Source: Polyangiaceae bacterium (GTDB lineage Bacteria > Myxococcota_A > Polyangia > Polyangiales > Polyangiaceae). Taken from it: a stretch of 46,925 nucleotides of DNA. A program made the position numbers and the translations under genes. Where the stretch lies: NCBI GenBank assembly GCA_020848455.1, contig JADLAB010000251.1:1-46925 (forward strand). Direction: 5' to 3'. The notes beneath the pieces were generated by a model that saw only the letters and a list, made by a program, of their open reading frames with translations, was not told where the DNA came from and did not search any database. Position 1 is the first letter of the stretch, and every line of letters begins with the position of its first letter. Shown here piece by piece: positions 40,814 to 45,192 of the stretch.

Positions 40814-42028
40814 CTACGGGCCGGGGTCACAAGCCGCGTGCACGGGTCCCCCGAGGGTCCACGGCGCCAGCACCGCGGCGGCCTCGCACGCCACGCGCCC
40901 GCAACCGAGCACCCGCGCGAGCTCGGGCCGCGCGCGAAAGAGGGCCGTGGCGCGCAGATACGCGGGCAGGTAGACGCGCTCGCGCCCCAGGCCGCCGCCC
41001 CGGTGCGCCCGCGCGGCGACGCGCAGGCGCGCGGCGAGCGGGGCCCCCGTGTCGGCGAGGCTCTGCACCGTGTCGACGAAGGAGGCGCCCTCCTCCATGC
41101 GGCGCGCCGCCCGGTGCCGCAGGGCGAGCTCGCTGCGCCGGACGGCGTCGAGCCAGCCGGCCGCCTGCTCGAGTGCCAGCGCACGCCCCTCCTGATCGTC
41201 CGAGCCGCGGGCCGTGCCGCAGCCGAAGAGCCCGAGCGGAGCGGCGAGCGCGCGCTCGCGCGGGGCCGCGTGGCCGCAGAGCTCGTGGACGACGGTGCGC
41301 TCGGTGGCGCGCCGGCTGAGCCAGCGCCCGCGCTCGACGAAGACGACGCCCGGGCCCGTGGCGGCGAGCGCGGCCAGCCCCTCGACGGCGACCACGCGGA
41401 CGGCGAGCCGCTCGGCGCCGACGGCGGCGCGCAGGCGGTTGAAGAGCGAGCCCGGGTGGGCGGCGTCGTCGCTCCGCACGAGCTCGGCCGCGTCGGCCGT
41501 GCCCGGCGCGGGCGCGGCGCCCAGGCCACCGTGCGCCTCGGAGAAGTCGGCCGCGCCGAGCCACGCGTCCGCGAGCGCGTCCGCGCGACGGTCGAAGGCG
41601 TCGCGCGCTGCGAAGCGCCGGCGGGCGAGCGCGAAGAAGGCGGGGCGCCCGACCTGCTCGCAGAGCTGCGCCTCGAGCTCGAGCTCCTCGGCGCGCGCGG
41701 CGTAGAGCGCGCCGAGCGGGCCCGAGCCCGCGAGCCGGCTCGCGAGCTCGCCGAGCAAGCGGCGCACGGCGGCAAGCTCCGGCGCCGGCGCGTACGCGAA
41801 CGCGGGCGCCCGCTCGGCGCCCGACGCGAAAGCGCCGGCGAGCGCCTCGAGCTCGGCGCCGAGGTTCCTCGGGGTCGCACACCCGATGAGCCGGATGTGC
41901 GCCGCGGCGTCGCCGAGCACGCGCCGCGCCACGCGCTCCCAGGCCGGGATCGTGGGGCGCGGGAGCGGCGCGCTCGGGTCCGCCCGGTCGCACGCGACGC
42001 GGACCTGCGCTGCCGCGGCGCGGCTCAC
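40814..42028 (-). CDS. DUF1704/MATCAP-like putative metallopeptidase
   Basis: 404 residues from GTG 42028, overlapping the phoH stop by 4 bp. The core motif is VVHELCGHA (about residues 245-253), an HExxGH-type zinc site, followed about 25 residues later by SDDQEGRALALEQA, the QEG motif that gives the family its old name (QEGLA-motif protein). The human relative MATCAP is a tyrosine carboxypeptidase acting on tubulin; bacterial functions are unknown. The N-terminal 200 residues are helical. Residues for zinc binding appear intact, so it is probably catalytically competent. Translationally coupled to PhoH. Confidence 0.82.
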   Translation of the reverse strand: MSRAAAAQVRVACDRADPSAPLPRPTIPAWERVARRVLGDAAAHIRLIGCATPRNLGAELEALAGAFASGAERAPAFAYAPAPELAAVRRLLGELASRLAGSGPLGALYAARAEELELEAQLCEQVGRPAFFALARRRFAARDAFDRRADALADAWLGAADFSEAHGGLGAAPAPGTADAAELVRSDDAAHPGSLFNRLRAAVGAERLAVRVVAVEGLAALAATGPGVVFVERGRWLSRRATERTVVHELCGHAAPRERALAAPLGLFGCGTARGSDDQEGRALALEQAAGWLDAVRRSELALRHRAARRMEEGASFVDTVQSLADTGAPLAARLRVAARAHRGGGLGRERVYLPAYLRATALFRARPELARVLGCGRVACEAAAVLAPWTLGGPVHAACDPGP

Positions 42029-43344
42029 AACAGGTTCGCGGCGAGCTCCGCCAGCTCGCTGCGCTCGCCCTTCGCGAGCGCCACGTGCCCCGCGAGCCGC
42101 TCGCTCTTGAAGCGCTGTGCGGCGACCGACAGGCCGTTGCTCGCGTGGTCGACGTAGGGGTGGTCGATCTGGTGCGGATCGCCCGTGAGGATGACCTTCG
42201 TGCCCTCGCCGGAGCGGGTGATGATCGTCTTGATCTCGTGGGGCGTCAGGTTCTGCGCCTCGTCCACGATGAGGAACTGCTTCGGCAGGCTGCGACCACG
42301 GATGTAGGTGAGCGGCTCGACCTGGATGACGCCGTTCTCGACGAGCGGCAGGTAGGCGCGCGAATCGCGCCCGCCGCCAGCCGCGTGCGGGGTTTGCGTG
42401 AAGATGTACTCGAGGTTGTCGAAGATGGGCTGCATCCACGGGTTGAGCTTCTCGTCGACGTCGCCCGGCAGAAAGCCGAGGTCGCGTCCGAGTGGCATCA
42501 CCGGTCGGCTCACGAGCAGGCGCGTGTAGGTGTGGTCGATGGTCGTGCGGTGCAGGCCGGCGGCGAGCGCGAGCAGCGTCTTGCCCGTGCCGGCCTTGCC
42601 GAGCAGGCACACGAGGCGCACCGAATCGTCGAGCAACAGATCGAGCGCGATCGACTGCTCCTTGTTGCGCGGCCGGATCGACATGACGCCCTCGCGCGGC
42701 ACGCGCAGCGCCTTGACGACCTTGCCGTCGTAGCGCGCGAGCGCGGTGTGGCTGAGGGCCTGCTCGTTGCGCAGCAGCACGCCGGCGTTCGGGTAGAGGT
42801 CCGGGTGGCTCACGGTCGCGCTGCCCGTGGCGAAGAAGCCGTCGATGTCCGCGGGCGGGACCTGCACCTCGATCACCGACTTCTCGAGGTCGAGATCCTG
42901 GACGCGCGGGTTCTCGTAGGTCTGCGAGGCGACGCCGATGGCGTCGGCGCGGATGCGCAGGTTGGTGTCCATCGTGACGAACACGGTCGGACACGCCTTG
43001 TCGCGGTCGCGCACGTCGATGGCGGTCTGCAGGATCGCGTGGTCGAGCGAGTTCGAGTCGAGCCCGACGCCGAGCTCGTGGCGCCGCTTCGGGACGGCGA
43101 TCTGGAGCGTGCCGCCGCCCTTCAGCGGCACCTGCTGCGAGAGGCTGCCGTTCTGGCCGCGCAGCTGGTCGAGCACACGCGCCACCGTCCGGGCGTTGCG
43201 GCCCCGCTCGGTGCTCTCGCGCTTGAACTTGTCGATCTCCTCGATCGCGTAGATCGGGACGATGACGTTGTTGTCCTCGAACTTGAAGACCGCGTGGGGG
43301 TCGTGGAGGAGGACGTTGGCATCTAGGACGTAATTCTTCTTCAT
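42025..43344 (-). CDS. PIN-PhoH ATPase
   Basis: 439 residues of the PhoH2 type. The N-terminal PIN ribonuclease domain (about 1-135) has acidic residues in YVLDANVLLHDP, IEEIDKFK and VFVTMDTNLRIRA, consistent with metal-dependent RNA cleavage. The C-terminal PhoH ATPase has Walker A GKAGTGKT (about 248-255), LVSRPVMPLGRD and Walker B FLIVDEAQN. Such proteins act as RNA helicase/RNase or RNA-quality factors. The start ATG 43344 gives MKKNYVLDANVLLHD, the family N-terminus; no good ribosome-binding sequence precedes it. The next gene overlaps it (GTGA), linking the two functions. Confidence 0.93.
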   Translation of the reverse strand: MKKNYVLDANVLLHDPHAVFKFEDNNVIVPIYAIEEIDKFKRESTERGRNARTVARVLDQLRGQNGSLSQQVPLKGGGTLQIAVPKRRHELGVGLDSNSLDHAILQTAIDVRDRDKACPTVFVTMDTNLRIRADAIGVASQTYENPRVQDLDLEKSVIEVQVPPADIDGFFATGSATVSHPDLYPNAGVLLRNEQALSHTALARYDGKVVKALRVPREGVMSIRPRNKEQSIALDLLLDDSVRLVCLLGKAGTGKTLLALAAGLHRTTIDHTYTRLLVSRPVMPLGRDLGFLPGDVDEKLNPWMQPIFDNLEYIFTQTPHAAGGGRDSRAYLPLVENGVIQVEPLTYIRGRSLPKQFLIVDEAQNLTPHEIKTIITRSGEGTKVILTGDPHQIDHPYVDHASNGLSVAAQRFKSERLAGHVALAKGERSELAELAANLL

Positions 43345-43649: not shown

Positions 43650-43678
43650 TTGAAAGGACGCGCGAAGCGAAGTAGAAA
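43650..43678 (+). promoter_or_regulatory. Sigma70-type promoter of the small basic protein gene
   Basis: TTGAAA (43650-43655), exactly 17 bp, TAGAAA (43673-43678). Transcription would begin near 43685, about 40 nt before ATG 43726. It is one of the two best promoter matches in the window and has no other gene to serve. Confidence 0.6.
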
Positions 43679-43725
43679 GCCAAACCCCGGTGCGGCACGA
43701 CCGCCCGAGTGGAGCAGGTGCGACG

Positions 43726-43842
43726 ATGTTCCTCATGATCGCGAAGCGACCGCGCAAGACCAACCGCACGAAGACGGCCCGCTATCGGGCCAAGCTCAAG
43801 GCGAAGAACAACCGCCGCCGCGCGGGCACGATCGCGAGCTGA
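43726..43842 (+). CDS. Very basic 38-residue small protein
   Basis: Reads MFLMIAKRPRKTNRTKTARY and 18 further residues rich in Lys/Arg, ending GTIAS. Fourteen of 38 residues are Lys or Arg and none is acidic. Codon third positions are G or C in 36 of 38 codons, as in true genes here, and a good promoter precedes it. A GGAG lies about 11 nt before the ATG; ATG 43735 (MIAKRPRK) is an alternative start. The composition recalls small ribosomal or nucleic-acid-binding proteins such as bL34 and bTHX, but I recognise no family. The likely target is RNA or DNA. A stem AGCGGC/GCCGCT (43848-43866) follows. Confidence 0.7.
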   Translation: MFLMIAKRPRKTNRTKTARYRAKLKAKNNRRRAGTIAS

Positions 43843-44101: not shown

Positions 44102-44692
44102 TCAGGCGCCGCTCTTCTTGAGCTCGAGGAACACGAGGCGCGCGACGGCCTTCAGCGTCTCGAAGACGCCCGTGCCGTCGCTGGCGACCGCCTCGAACTC
44201 CGGCACGCCGTCCGGGTTCAGGGACGCGCGCAGCTCCTCGACGCTCATCACGCTCGGCAGATCGCGCTTGTTGTACTGGATGACGTACGGGATCTTGTCG
44301 AGCGACAGGCCGTACTCGGCCAGGTTGACCCGGAGGTTGTCGAGCGATTCCTCGTTCGCGTCGGCGCGCGCGATCTGGCTGTCGGCCACGAACACGGCGC
44401 CGTCGATGCCCTTCAGGATGAGCTTGCGGCTGGCGTCGTAGAACACCTGCCCGGGCACGGTGTAGAGGTGGAAGCGCGTCTTGAAGCCGCGGATCTCGCC
44501 GAGCTCGAGCGGCAGGAAGTCGAAGAAGAGCGTGCGGTCGGTTTCGGTGGCGAGCGAGACCATCTTGCCGCGCGAGGTCGGCTTGGTCTTGTCGAAGATG
44601 AATTGCAGGTTGGTCGTCTTACCGCAGAGGCCGGGACCGTAGTAGACGATCTTGCAGTTGATCTCCCTCGCCATGAGGTTGATGAAGGTCAT
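44102..44692 (-). CDS. mglA: Ras-like polarity GTPase MglA
   Basis: 196 residues, close in sequence and length to Myxococcus xanthus MglA (195), the switch that sets the leading pole for type IV pili and gliding complexes. P-loop [11 protein letters not shown] (about 18-28), [14 protein letters not shown] (switch I), [22 protein letters not shown] (switch II, Thr78 in place of the Asp of classical small GTPases) and YNKRDLP (guanine specificity). The start [19 protein letters not shown] matches the family N-terminus. mglB ends 17 bp upstream, and MglB is its GAP. Confidence 0.97.
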
Positions 44693-44709: not shown

Positions 44710-45192
44710 TCAGTCGTTGAAGAGGTTGTCGATGTCTTCGTCGGTGATCTCGGCGAACGCTGAGCCACCCCCGGGCTCCGCGGACTTCTTGGCCATCTGT
44801 TCGAAGATCTCGACGAGCTCGTCGCTCGTCTTGCGCACGCGCAGCCGCACGAGGCCCAGGCTCGACTTGGCGTCGAAGATGACGACCAGGATGACCCGGT
44901 TGCCCACGAGCTGAATGTAGATGTGGGCGTTCTTGCCCTCGTGGAACTGCGTCGTGAACTCGTTCTCGCGCAGCAGCTTGGCCATCCCGCCCGTGGCCGC
45001 GATGTTGCCAGCCGTGAGGGAGGCGAGCGACGTCGCGTCCATGTTCTCGACCTCGCCACTCGAAGCGATGAACTGTCCGTTCTTGTCGACGACGAACACG
45101 CACTTCGCGTTGGCGGCCTGGACGAGCGCGCTCACGGATGTCTGGATCCGGTTGAGCTCCGCCTCGTACATCACCGTGTGAGGGTTGACCAT
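44710..45192 (-). CDS. mglB: MglA GTPase-activating protein MglB (Roadblock/LC7)
   Basis: 160-residue Roadblock/LC7 protein, the GAP that keeps MglA-GTP off the lagging pole. [16 protein letters not shown] starts the alpha1 helix, [42 protein letters not shown] is the roadblock core, and [25 protein letters not shown] completes the sheet. A charged C-terminal tail ([13 protein letters not shown]) follows. GGAGG lies just upstream of ATG 45192. Gene order mglB-mglA is as in M. xanthus. Confidence 0.96.

Follow-up and report, generated by a model that had tools for sequence, protein, structure and literature searches.

bL34 and bS21 are small, basic, helical ribosomal proteins, and mS38 and eL41 are the mitochondrial and eukaryotic analogues of a further small ribosomal protein, bS22. 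A precedent comes from a study of the Borrelia ribosome, in which the genetically non-annotated proteins bS22 and bL38 were discovered (PMC10618245). In that study, bS22 is presented as a single basic helix of about 30–35 amino acids that is often unannotated and belongs to the ribosomes of particular lineages, and the authors expect bS22-type proteins in more species (PMC10618245). bL37 and bL38 are likewise small proteins, known to date from particular lineages only, and bL38 is said in the same text to contain beta strands (PMC10618245).

We analyzed a 46,925-nucleotide contig of a Polyangiaceae bacterium (JADLAB010000251.1 of assembly GCA_020848455.1, hereafter the window) and found that positions 43726–43842 are a genuine gene for a 38-residue basic protein. 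This small ORF belongs to a Myxococcota small-protein family, defined in the present analysis by a core motif together with ORF length, that is unrepresented in Pfam or NCBIfam; none of the members scanned had a significant model in either collection, and we found no description of the family in the open-access PMC literature, most subscription papers lying outside that scope. A protein that is near-universal among the sampled genomes of a large bacterial order and occurs in many other Myxococcota, yet is matched by neither Pfam nor NCBIfam, represents a gap in the parts list.

The protein resembles bS22 in being small, basic, predicted to form a single helix, and limited to a lineage, and it may bind the ribosome as bS22 does. 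It differs from bS22 in that no sequence relation between the two was found. The bS22 model (COX24_C, PF08213) detected a Corynebacterium control and matched none of the 116 genomes sampled from the class, although a divergent bS22 might escape it; the small ORF had no match to PF08213, and comparison of profile A3, built from 40 family members, with three actinobacterial bS22 sequences gave a score of 11.1 on one aligned column, within the range of shuffles, which reach 13.1. Homology to bS22 is therefore unsupported by either the PF08213 search or the profile comparison. With bL37 and bL38 it shares small size and restriction to particular lineages, but it lacks a match to any solved chain at E ≤ 10, a threshold at which a query of this length may go undetected, and its predicted single helix differs from the beta strands of bL38. 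The structure searches comprised two profiles run against 177,635 distinct PDB sequences, many bacterial ribosomes included, neither of which gave a match at E ≤ 10, and two relatives run as single queries, one without a match at E ≤ 10 and the other with a single match to residues 63–83 of bS20 (E = 5).

The small gene and its conservation

The gene lies on the forward strand (43726..43842, +) and its 38 codons, followed by TGA, translate as MFLMIAKRPRKTNRTKTARYRAKLKAKNNRRRAGTIAS. Our recount agrees with the composition given by an earlier, sequence-only reading of this DNA: lysine or arginine occupies 14 of the 38 residues, aspartate and glutamate are absent, and 36 of 38 codons end in G or C, a third-position bias that counts for little by itself where the DNA is so rich in GC. 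An alternative 50-residue form could start at the in-frame GTG at position 43690, but the alignment of relatives starts at the ATG at 43726 and not at this GTG.

Searching with the single peptide matched 39 of 59 relatives at E ≤ 1e-3, weaker matches of that search being intermingled with noise. Profile A3, applied to the whole class, detected the family in 57 of the 58 sampled genomes of the order (weakest E = 4.9e-8), the sole genome missed being 88% complete (G023); extra matches per genome at the loose cut-off of this search were weak, with E about 0.001 and above. A phylum-wide search with profile A2 (E ≤ 0.05) recovered the family in 205 of 377 genomes, among them 68 of 71 genomes of the order (33 of 35 from the same bacterial family as the window and 35 of 36 from the remainder; G023, G375, and G386 were missed), almost always with one match per genome.

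These matches correspond to intact reading frames. All 40 loci of one fetched batch were intact small ORFs whose in-frame start codon lay no more than a few codons from the match. The same held for all 30 loci of a second set (17 of them read as the reverse complement) and for 34 of 35 in a third, where the exception (L102) runs off the contig end. The 75 members from the order all begin with ATG, are 35–50 amino acids long, and average 41% lysine plus arginine with zero to two acidic residues. Positions M1, R10, R14, R19, K27, and R31 are invariant in alignment A1 (29 sequences), members of the order begin with M[FY][LIV] in alignments A1 and A3 (MFL in the window), and the core R-x-[KR]-[STC]-x-R-x-x-A-K-x-K-x-K, within an ORF of about 35–50 amino acids, takes the form RTKTARYRAKLKAK in the window. 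In a genome of the same genus (G001) the ORF differs from that of the window at 2 of 117 nucleotides, both synonymous third positions, and ungapped comparison of the flanks finds 91 of 110 upstream positions alike and 28 of 80 downstream, so that similarity collapses past the stop codon. Because the reading frame is conserved to this extent by both peptide and profile searches, the ORF is beyond what chance would produce. The proposal of the sequence-only reading that this is an overlooked small protein is strongly supported, with frame, start, stop, promoter, and ribosome-binding site conserved across relatives; frameshifts or loss of the frame, which that reading had named as grounds for abandoning the proposal, were looked for in relatives and not found.

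Promoter, ribosome-binding site, and 3' flank

Upstream of the gene stand a −35-like hexamer, TTGAAA (43650..43655, +), and 17 nt after it a −10-like hexamer, TAGAAA (43673..43678, +), a motif that is kept upstream in relatives. The sequence-only reading had placed this TTGAAA-N17-TAGAAA element about 40 nt before the gene; the element is present as described, but it ends 47 nt before the ATG. A strict consensus scan of the window called no sigma-70 site at this position, and the window's promoter is unremarkable from its own sequence alone, its weight coming from relatives. We found TTG-N3-N17-TA in 57 of 75 upstream regions of the order (regions of up to 110 nt, from related and non-independent genomes of which some are near-identical, such as L036–L038), compared to a mean of 2.0 and a maximum of 6 in 300 composition shuffles, which supports the earlier description of the promoter as good. 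When TA is followed by A, C, or G, a 17-nt spacer occurs in 49 of the 75 regions and each spacer of 12–16 or 18–22 nt in one to six; spacer sequences vary widely, indicating that it is the arrangement that is conserved and not merely the DNA. The same promoter element precedes rpsT, a known ribosomal gene: it is present in 9 of the 20 rpsT upstream regions that could be read (mean of shuffles 0.33), these being 20 of a set of 30 from which ten were dropped for an unrecognized start or, in L144, for having less than 110 nt upstream. Beyond the order, TTG-N3-N17-TA was not enriched (2 of 25 upstream regions, shuffle mean 0.5).

A candidate ribosome-binding site, GGAG, lies at 43711..43714 (+), and 48 of the 75 members of the order, all of which entered this test and the folding test, carry a GGAG/AGGA-type motif between −20 and −4 (shuffles: mean 8.6, maximum 15). 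At the other end of the gene, the stretch of 75 nt starting at the stop codon forms more stable structure than its shuffled versions do (mean z −1.68, with 31 of 75 below −2), compared to a mean z of −0.16 with 3 of 75 below −2 for a control of 75 upstream nt; shuffles in the promoter, Shine-Dalgarno, and folding tests alike keep base composition only and not dinucleotides. Several downstream flanks in relatives read as terminator hairpins, and in the window's own 3' flank the scan found no terminator and folding was ordinary (z −0.88). Taken in combination, the promoter, Shine-Dalgarno-like motif, and 3' folding results indicate that the gene forms a transcription unit of its own, read from a housekeeping-type promoter, and its expression may be constitutive and high-level.

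In ten relatives (L006, L018, L019, L031, L184, L185, L199, L205, L206, and L208) the −10-like hexamer ends only 7–10 nt before the ATG, so the mRNA there would be leaderless or nearly so.

Neighbourhood and reach beyond the order

The gene is flanked in the window by a divergent PIN-PhoH (PhoH2-like) gene (42025..43344, −), which exceeds the Pfam cut-offs for PhoH and PIN_4 and scores 271 bits on the NCBIfam PhoH2 model, below that model's cut-off of 680. On the other side is a convergent gene for a probable MglA-like small GTPase (44102..44692, −; Pfam Arf, 23.7 bits versus a cut-off of 22.3), which adjoins an MglB-like roadblock protein gene (44710..45186, −; Pfam Robl_LC7, 63.3 bits; NCBIfam MglB, 86 bits, below its cut-off of 200). 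Among 20 relatives fetched for neighbourhood comparison, drawn from the 59 of the single-peptide search, 13 of 16 from the same family have MglA/MglB homologues no more than about 5 kb away from the small gene, as the window does, compared to 0 of 4 from other families of the order. Their orientation and spacing vary: the small gene may be convergent with mglA, downstream of it (gaps of about 260–800 nt), or separated from it by other genes. Beyond the order, the small gene is accompanied either by malQ and a TIGR04552-type gene or by an acyl-CoA dehydrogenase gene, pyrF, and tgt, most of these neighbours being named by eye. Proximity to mglBA is best read as inherited gene order, because in this sample the linkage is confined to the family and the neighbours of other groups are unrelated to it; conserved neighbours are rejected on the same grounds as a clue to function.

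Two further arrangements were observed among relatives. In two genomes of one genus, the small gene is preceded, at a distance of about 40 nt, by a tRNA-Phe gene of the same strand (L029, 1645–1719, −; L032, 1644–1718, −), which suggests that the two share a transcript in these genomes and gives a small hint of a link between the small gene and translation. In one group outside the order (L088, L100, L105, L107, L116, L117, L118, and others), the small gene sits in a conserved order between TIGR04552-family and malQ-like genes, the former being a model match for the L088 copy and the latter named by eye.

Weak matches outside the order turned out to be small ORFs of other Myxococcota that carry the same core, and it is mainly this core that these relatives hold in common. 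The degenerate pattern N-[KR]-[ST]-x-R-x-[RK]-A-K-L-K-A-K occurs at 35 places in a species-level genome collection, an exact and strict scan that says little about divergent forms elsewhere. The titles of these records name Myxococcota, Myxococcales, Polyangia, Deltaproteobacteria, Proteobacteria/Pseudomonadota or 'bacterium' metagenome-assembled genomes (MAGs), and in one case Klebsiella pneumoniae. This last record (L118, CAMBIK010000108.1) is probably a mislabelled MAG; it carries a deltaproteobacterial or Myxococcota-type small gene along with that gene's usual neighbours.

Within the class, the A3 search found members in families f17, f18, and f69 and only noise-level matches in families f14–f16, f19, and f20, where the small protein is absent or unrecognizable; it would thus not be indispensable to myxobacterial ribosomes generally. 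An origin from a mobile element was rejected, since the peptide had no match at E ≤ 1 among 72,556 plasmid and 50,697 phage records and 40 members searched against PHROG gave nothing below E = 0.05. A known RNA element at this site was likewise rejected, the Rfam match being chance-level (E = 0.5).

Relation to ribosomal proteins and possible role

Several small ribosomal proteins might have been replaced by the small protein or have given rise to it by splitting, but bS21, bS20, and bL34 are each encoded separately, and these candidates were rejected. In contrast to the small ORF, which neither Pfam model matches, canonical copies of bS21 (PF01165) and bL34 (PF00468) are found elsewhere in the same genome, on contigs C313 and C200; of the 6 matches to the former model and the 7 to the latter, none is the small ORF. 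The bS20 model (PF01649) has a single match in the genome, on yet another contig (C272), and does not match the small ORF. A full-length bS20 is encoded by 57 of the 59 relatives and by 20 of 20 distant carriers of the small gene, so bS20 has been neither split nor replaced. Distant members do contain a run that looks like part of bS20, N-K-x-[AS]-R-x-[RK]-[AS]-x-L (E = 5), but there is no profile similarity: against 17 bS20 sequences of relatives, A2 scored 9.1 (P 0.39) and A3 scored 7.0 (P 0.68), within column-shuffled bS20 controls that reach 14.0 and 15.3, respectively. For A2, a further control set, in which the columns of A2 were shuffled, comprised a reduced number of shuffles. Homology to bS20 is not supported by these comparisons. 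Judged by sequence, the small protein is a member of none of the bS22, bS20, bS21, or bL34 families, and with bS20, bS21, and bL34 present separately and bS22 undetectable it would be an addition to this set.

AlphaFold2, given the window protein and 17 relatives, predicts one helix at residues 16–37 following an extended N-terminal tail, with a mean pLDDT of 95 for residues 21–30, 65–74 for the tail, and 79 overall (pTM 0.42). We consider it probable that this is a small lineage-specific ribosomal or rRNA-associated protein, because it combines a basic tail with a basic helix, is mostly single copy and near-universal in the order, and has a promoter like that of rpsT. The earlier suggestion of a ribosome- or nucleic-acid-associated protein is plausible in this respect, agreeing with the composition, copy number, promoter, and predicted fold. 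By analogy, our best reading is that the protein may work like bS22, bL37, or eL41. The extended N-terminal tail (M[FY][LI]...KK.R) would thread into an rRNA groove, a candidate being one between rRNA helices, and the Arg/Lys-rich helix (core R-[NT]-[KR]-[ST]-x-R-x-R-A-K-L-K-A-K) would enter the groove with it; the bound peptide would neutralise phosphate charge and so stabilise the folded subunit or a subunit interface, in the way that bS22, bL37, and eL41 act in other ribosomes. More tentatively, and with somewhat more doubt than belief, we suggest that Myxococcota ribosomes carry a previously undescribed helix-plus-tail protein, about 40 residues long and without sequence relation to bS22, bL37, or bL38. 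It would fill a pocket that in other bacteria is empty or occupied by one of those proteins, and would have been lost or replaced in several sister families.

Some observations count against a ribosomal role. The PDB, with its many bacterial ribosomes, returned no significant match; several families of the same class have no recognizable member; the gene lies outside ribosomal-protein operons in the neighbourhoods examined; and the promoter pattern does not extend beyond the order. The unremarkable 3' flank of the window also counts against our best explanation. A rather unlikely alternative is that the same basic helix serves a nucleic-acid binder outside the ribosome, such as a small RNA chaperone, an RNase accessory protein, or a nucleoid protein, for which composition and helix are equally suitable. 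A divergent PhoH2-like RNA helicase/PIN gene adjoins the small gene in the window, in the same-genus genome, and in one other relative (3 of 21 loci), consistent with such a function, but the same clustering does not find this neighbour kept at the other 18 of 21, and a mostly single-copy gene with a narrow length range and an rpsT-like promoter better suits a stoichiometric ribosomal component.

The remaining explanations fare less well. It is improbable that the protein derives from a canonical ribosomal protein, as a shortened paralogue or through splitting, with the C-terminal helix of bS20 as the foremost candidate: the segment SRGHIKRNKSARYRAKL of distant members resembles the bS20 C-terminal motif by eye and the only PDB match is to that region of bS20, but E = 5 is not significant, the profile scores fall within column shuffles, and nearly all the relatives and all 20 distant carriers retain bS20 at full length. 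The frequent proximity of MglA/MglB homologues in the same family could point to a functional partner of this adjoining polarity switch, which we regard as very improbable given that the linkage is missing from the four members of other families, that orientation and spacing vary, and that the neighbours differ outside the order. We give practically no credence to a chance ORF, and although this ORF is short and spurious ORFs are common in GC-rich DNA (42 of at least 30 amino acids over 5.4 kb), that reading is refuted by the frame, start, stop, and promoter that members of the order share. If the protein is ribosomal, as we favor, it adds a lineage-specific ribosomal protein, a kind so far seen in a handful of lineages, and the fact that it has been lost patchily inside a single class would make the gain and loss of small ribosomal proteins testable.

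As a separate observation on bS20 itself, its C-terminus is divergent in the window's own genome (L153, G000:C272), where it reads PKKRAARLKARL, and in one relative (L154, G015:C6), where it reads PRKRASRLQGRL; in other families of the order the corresponding C-terminus is HRKTGSRYISRL.
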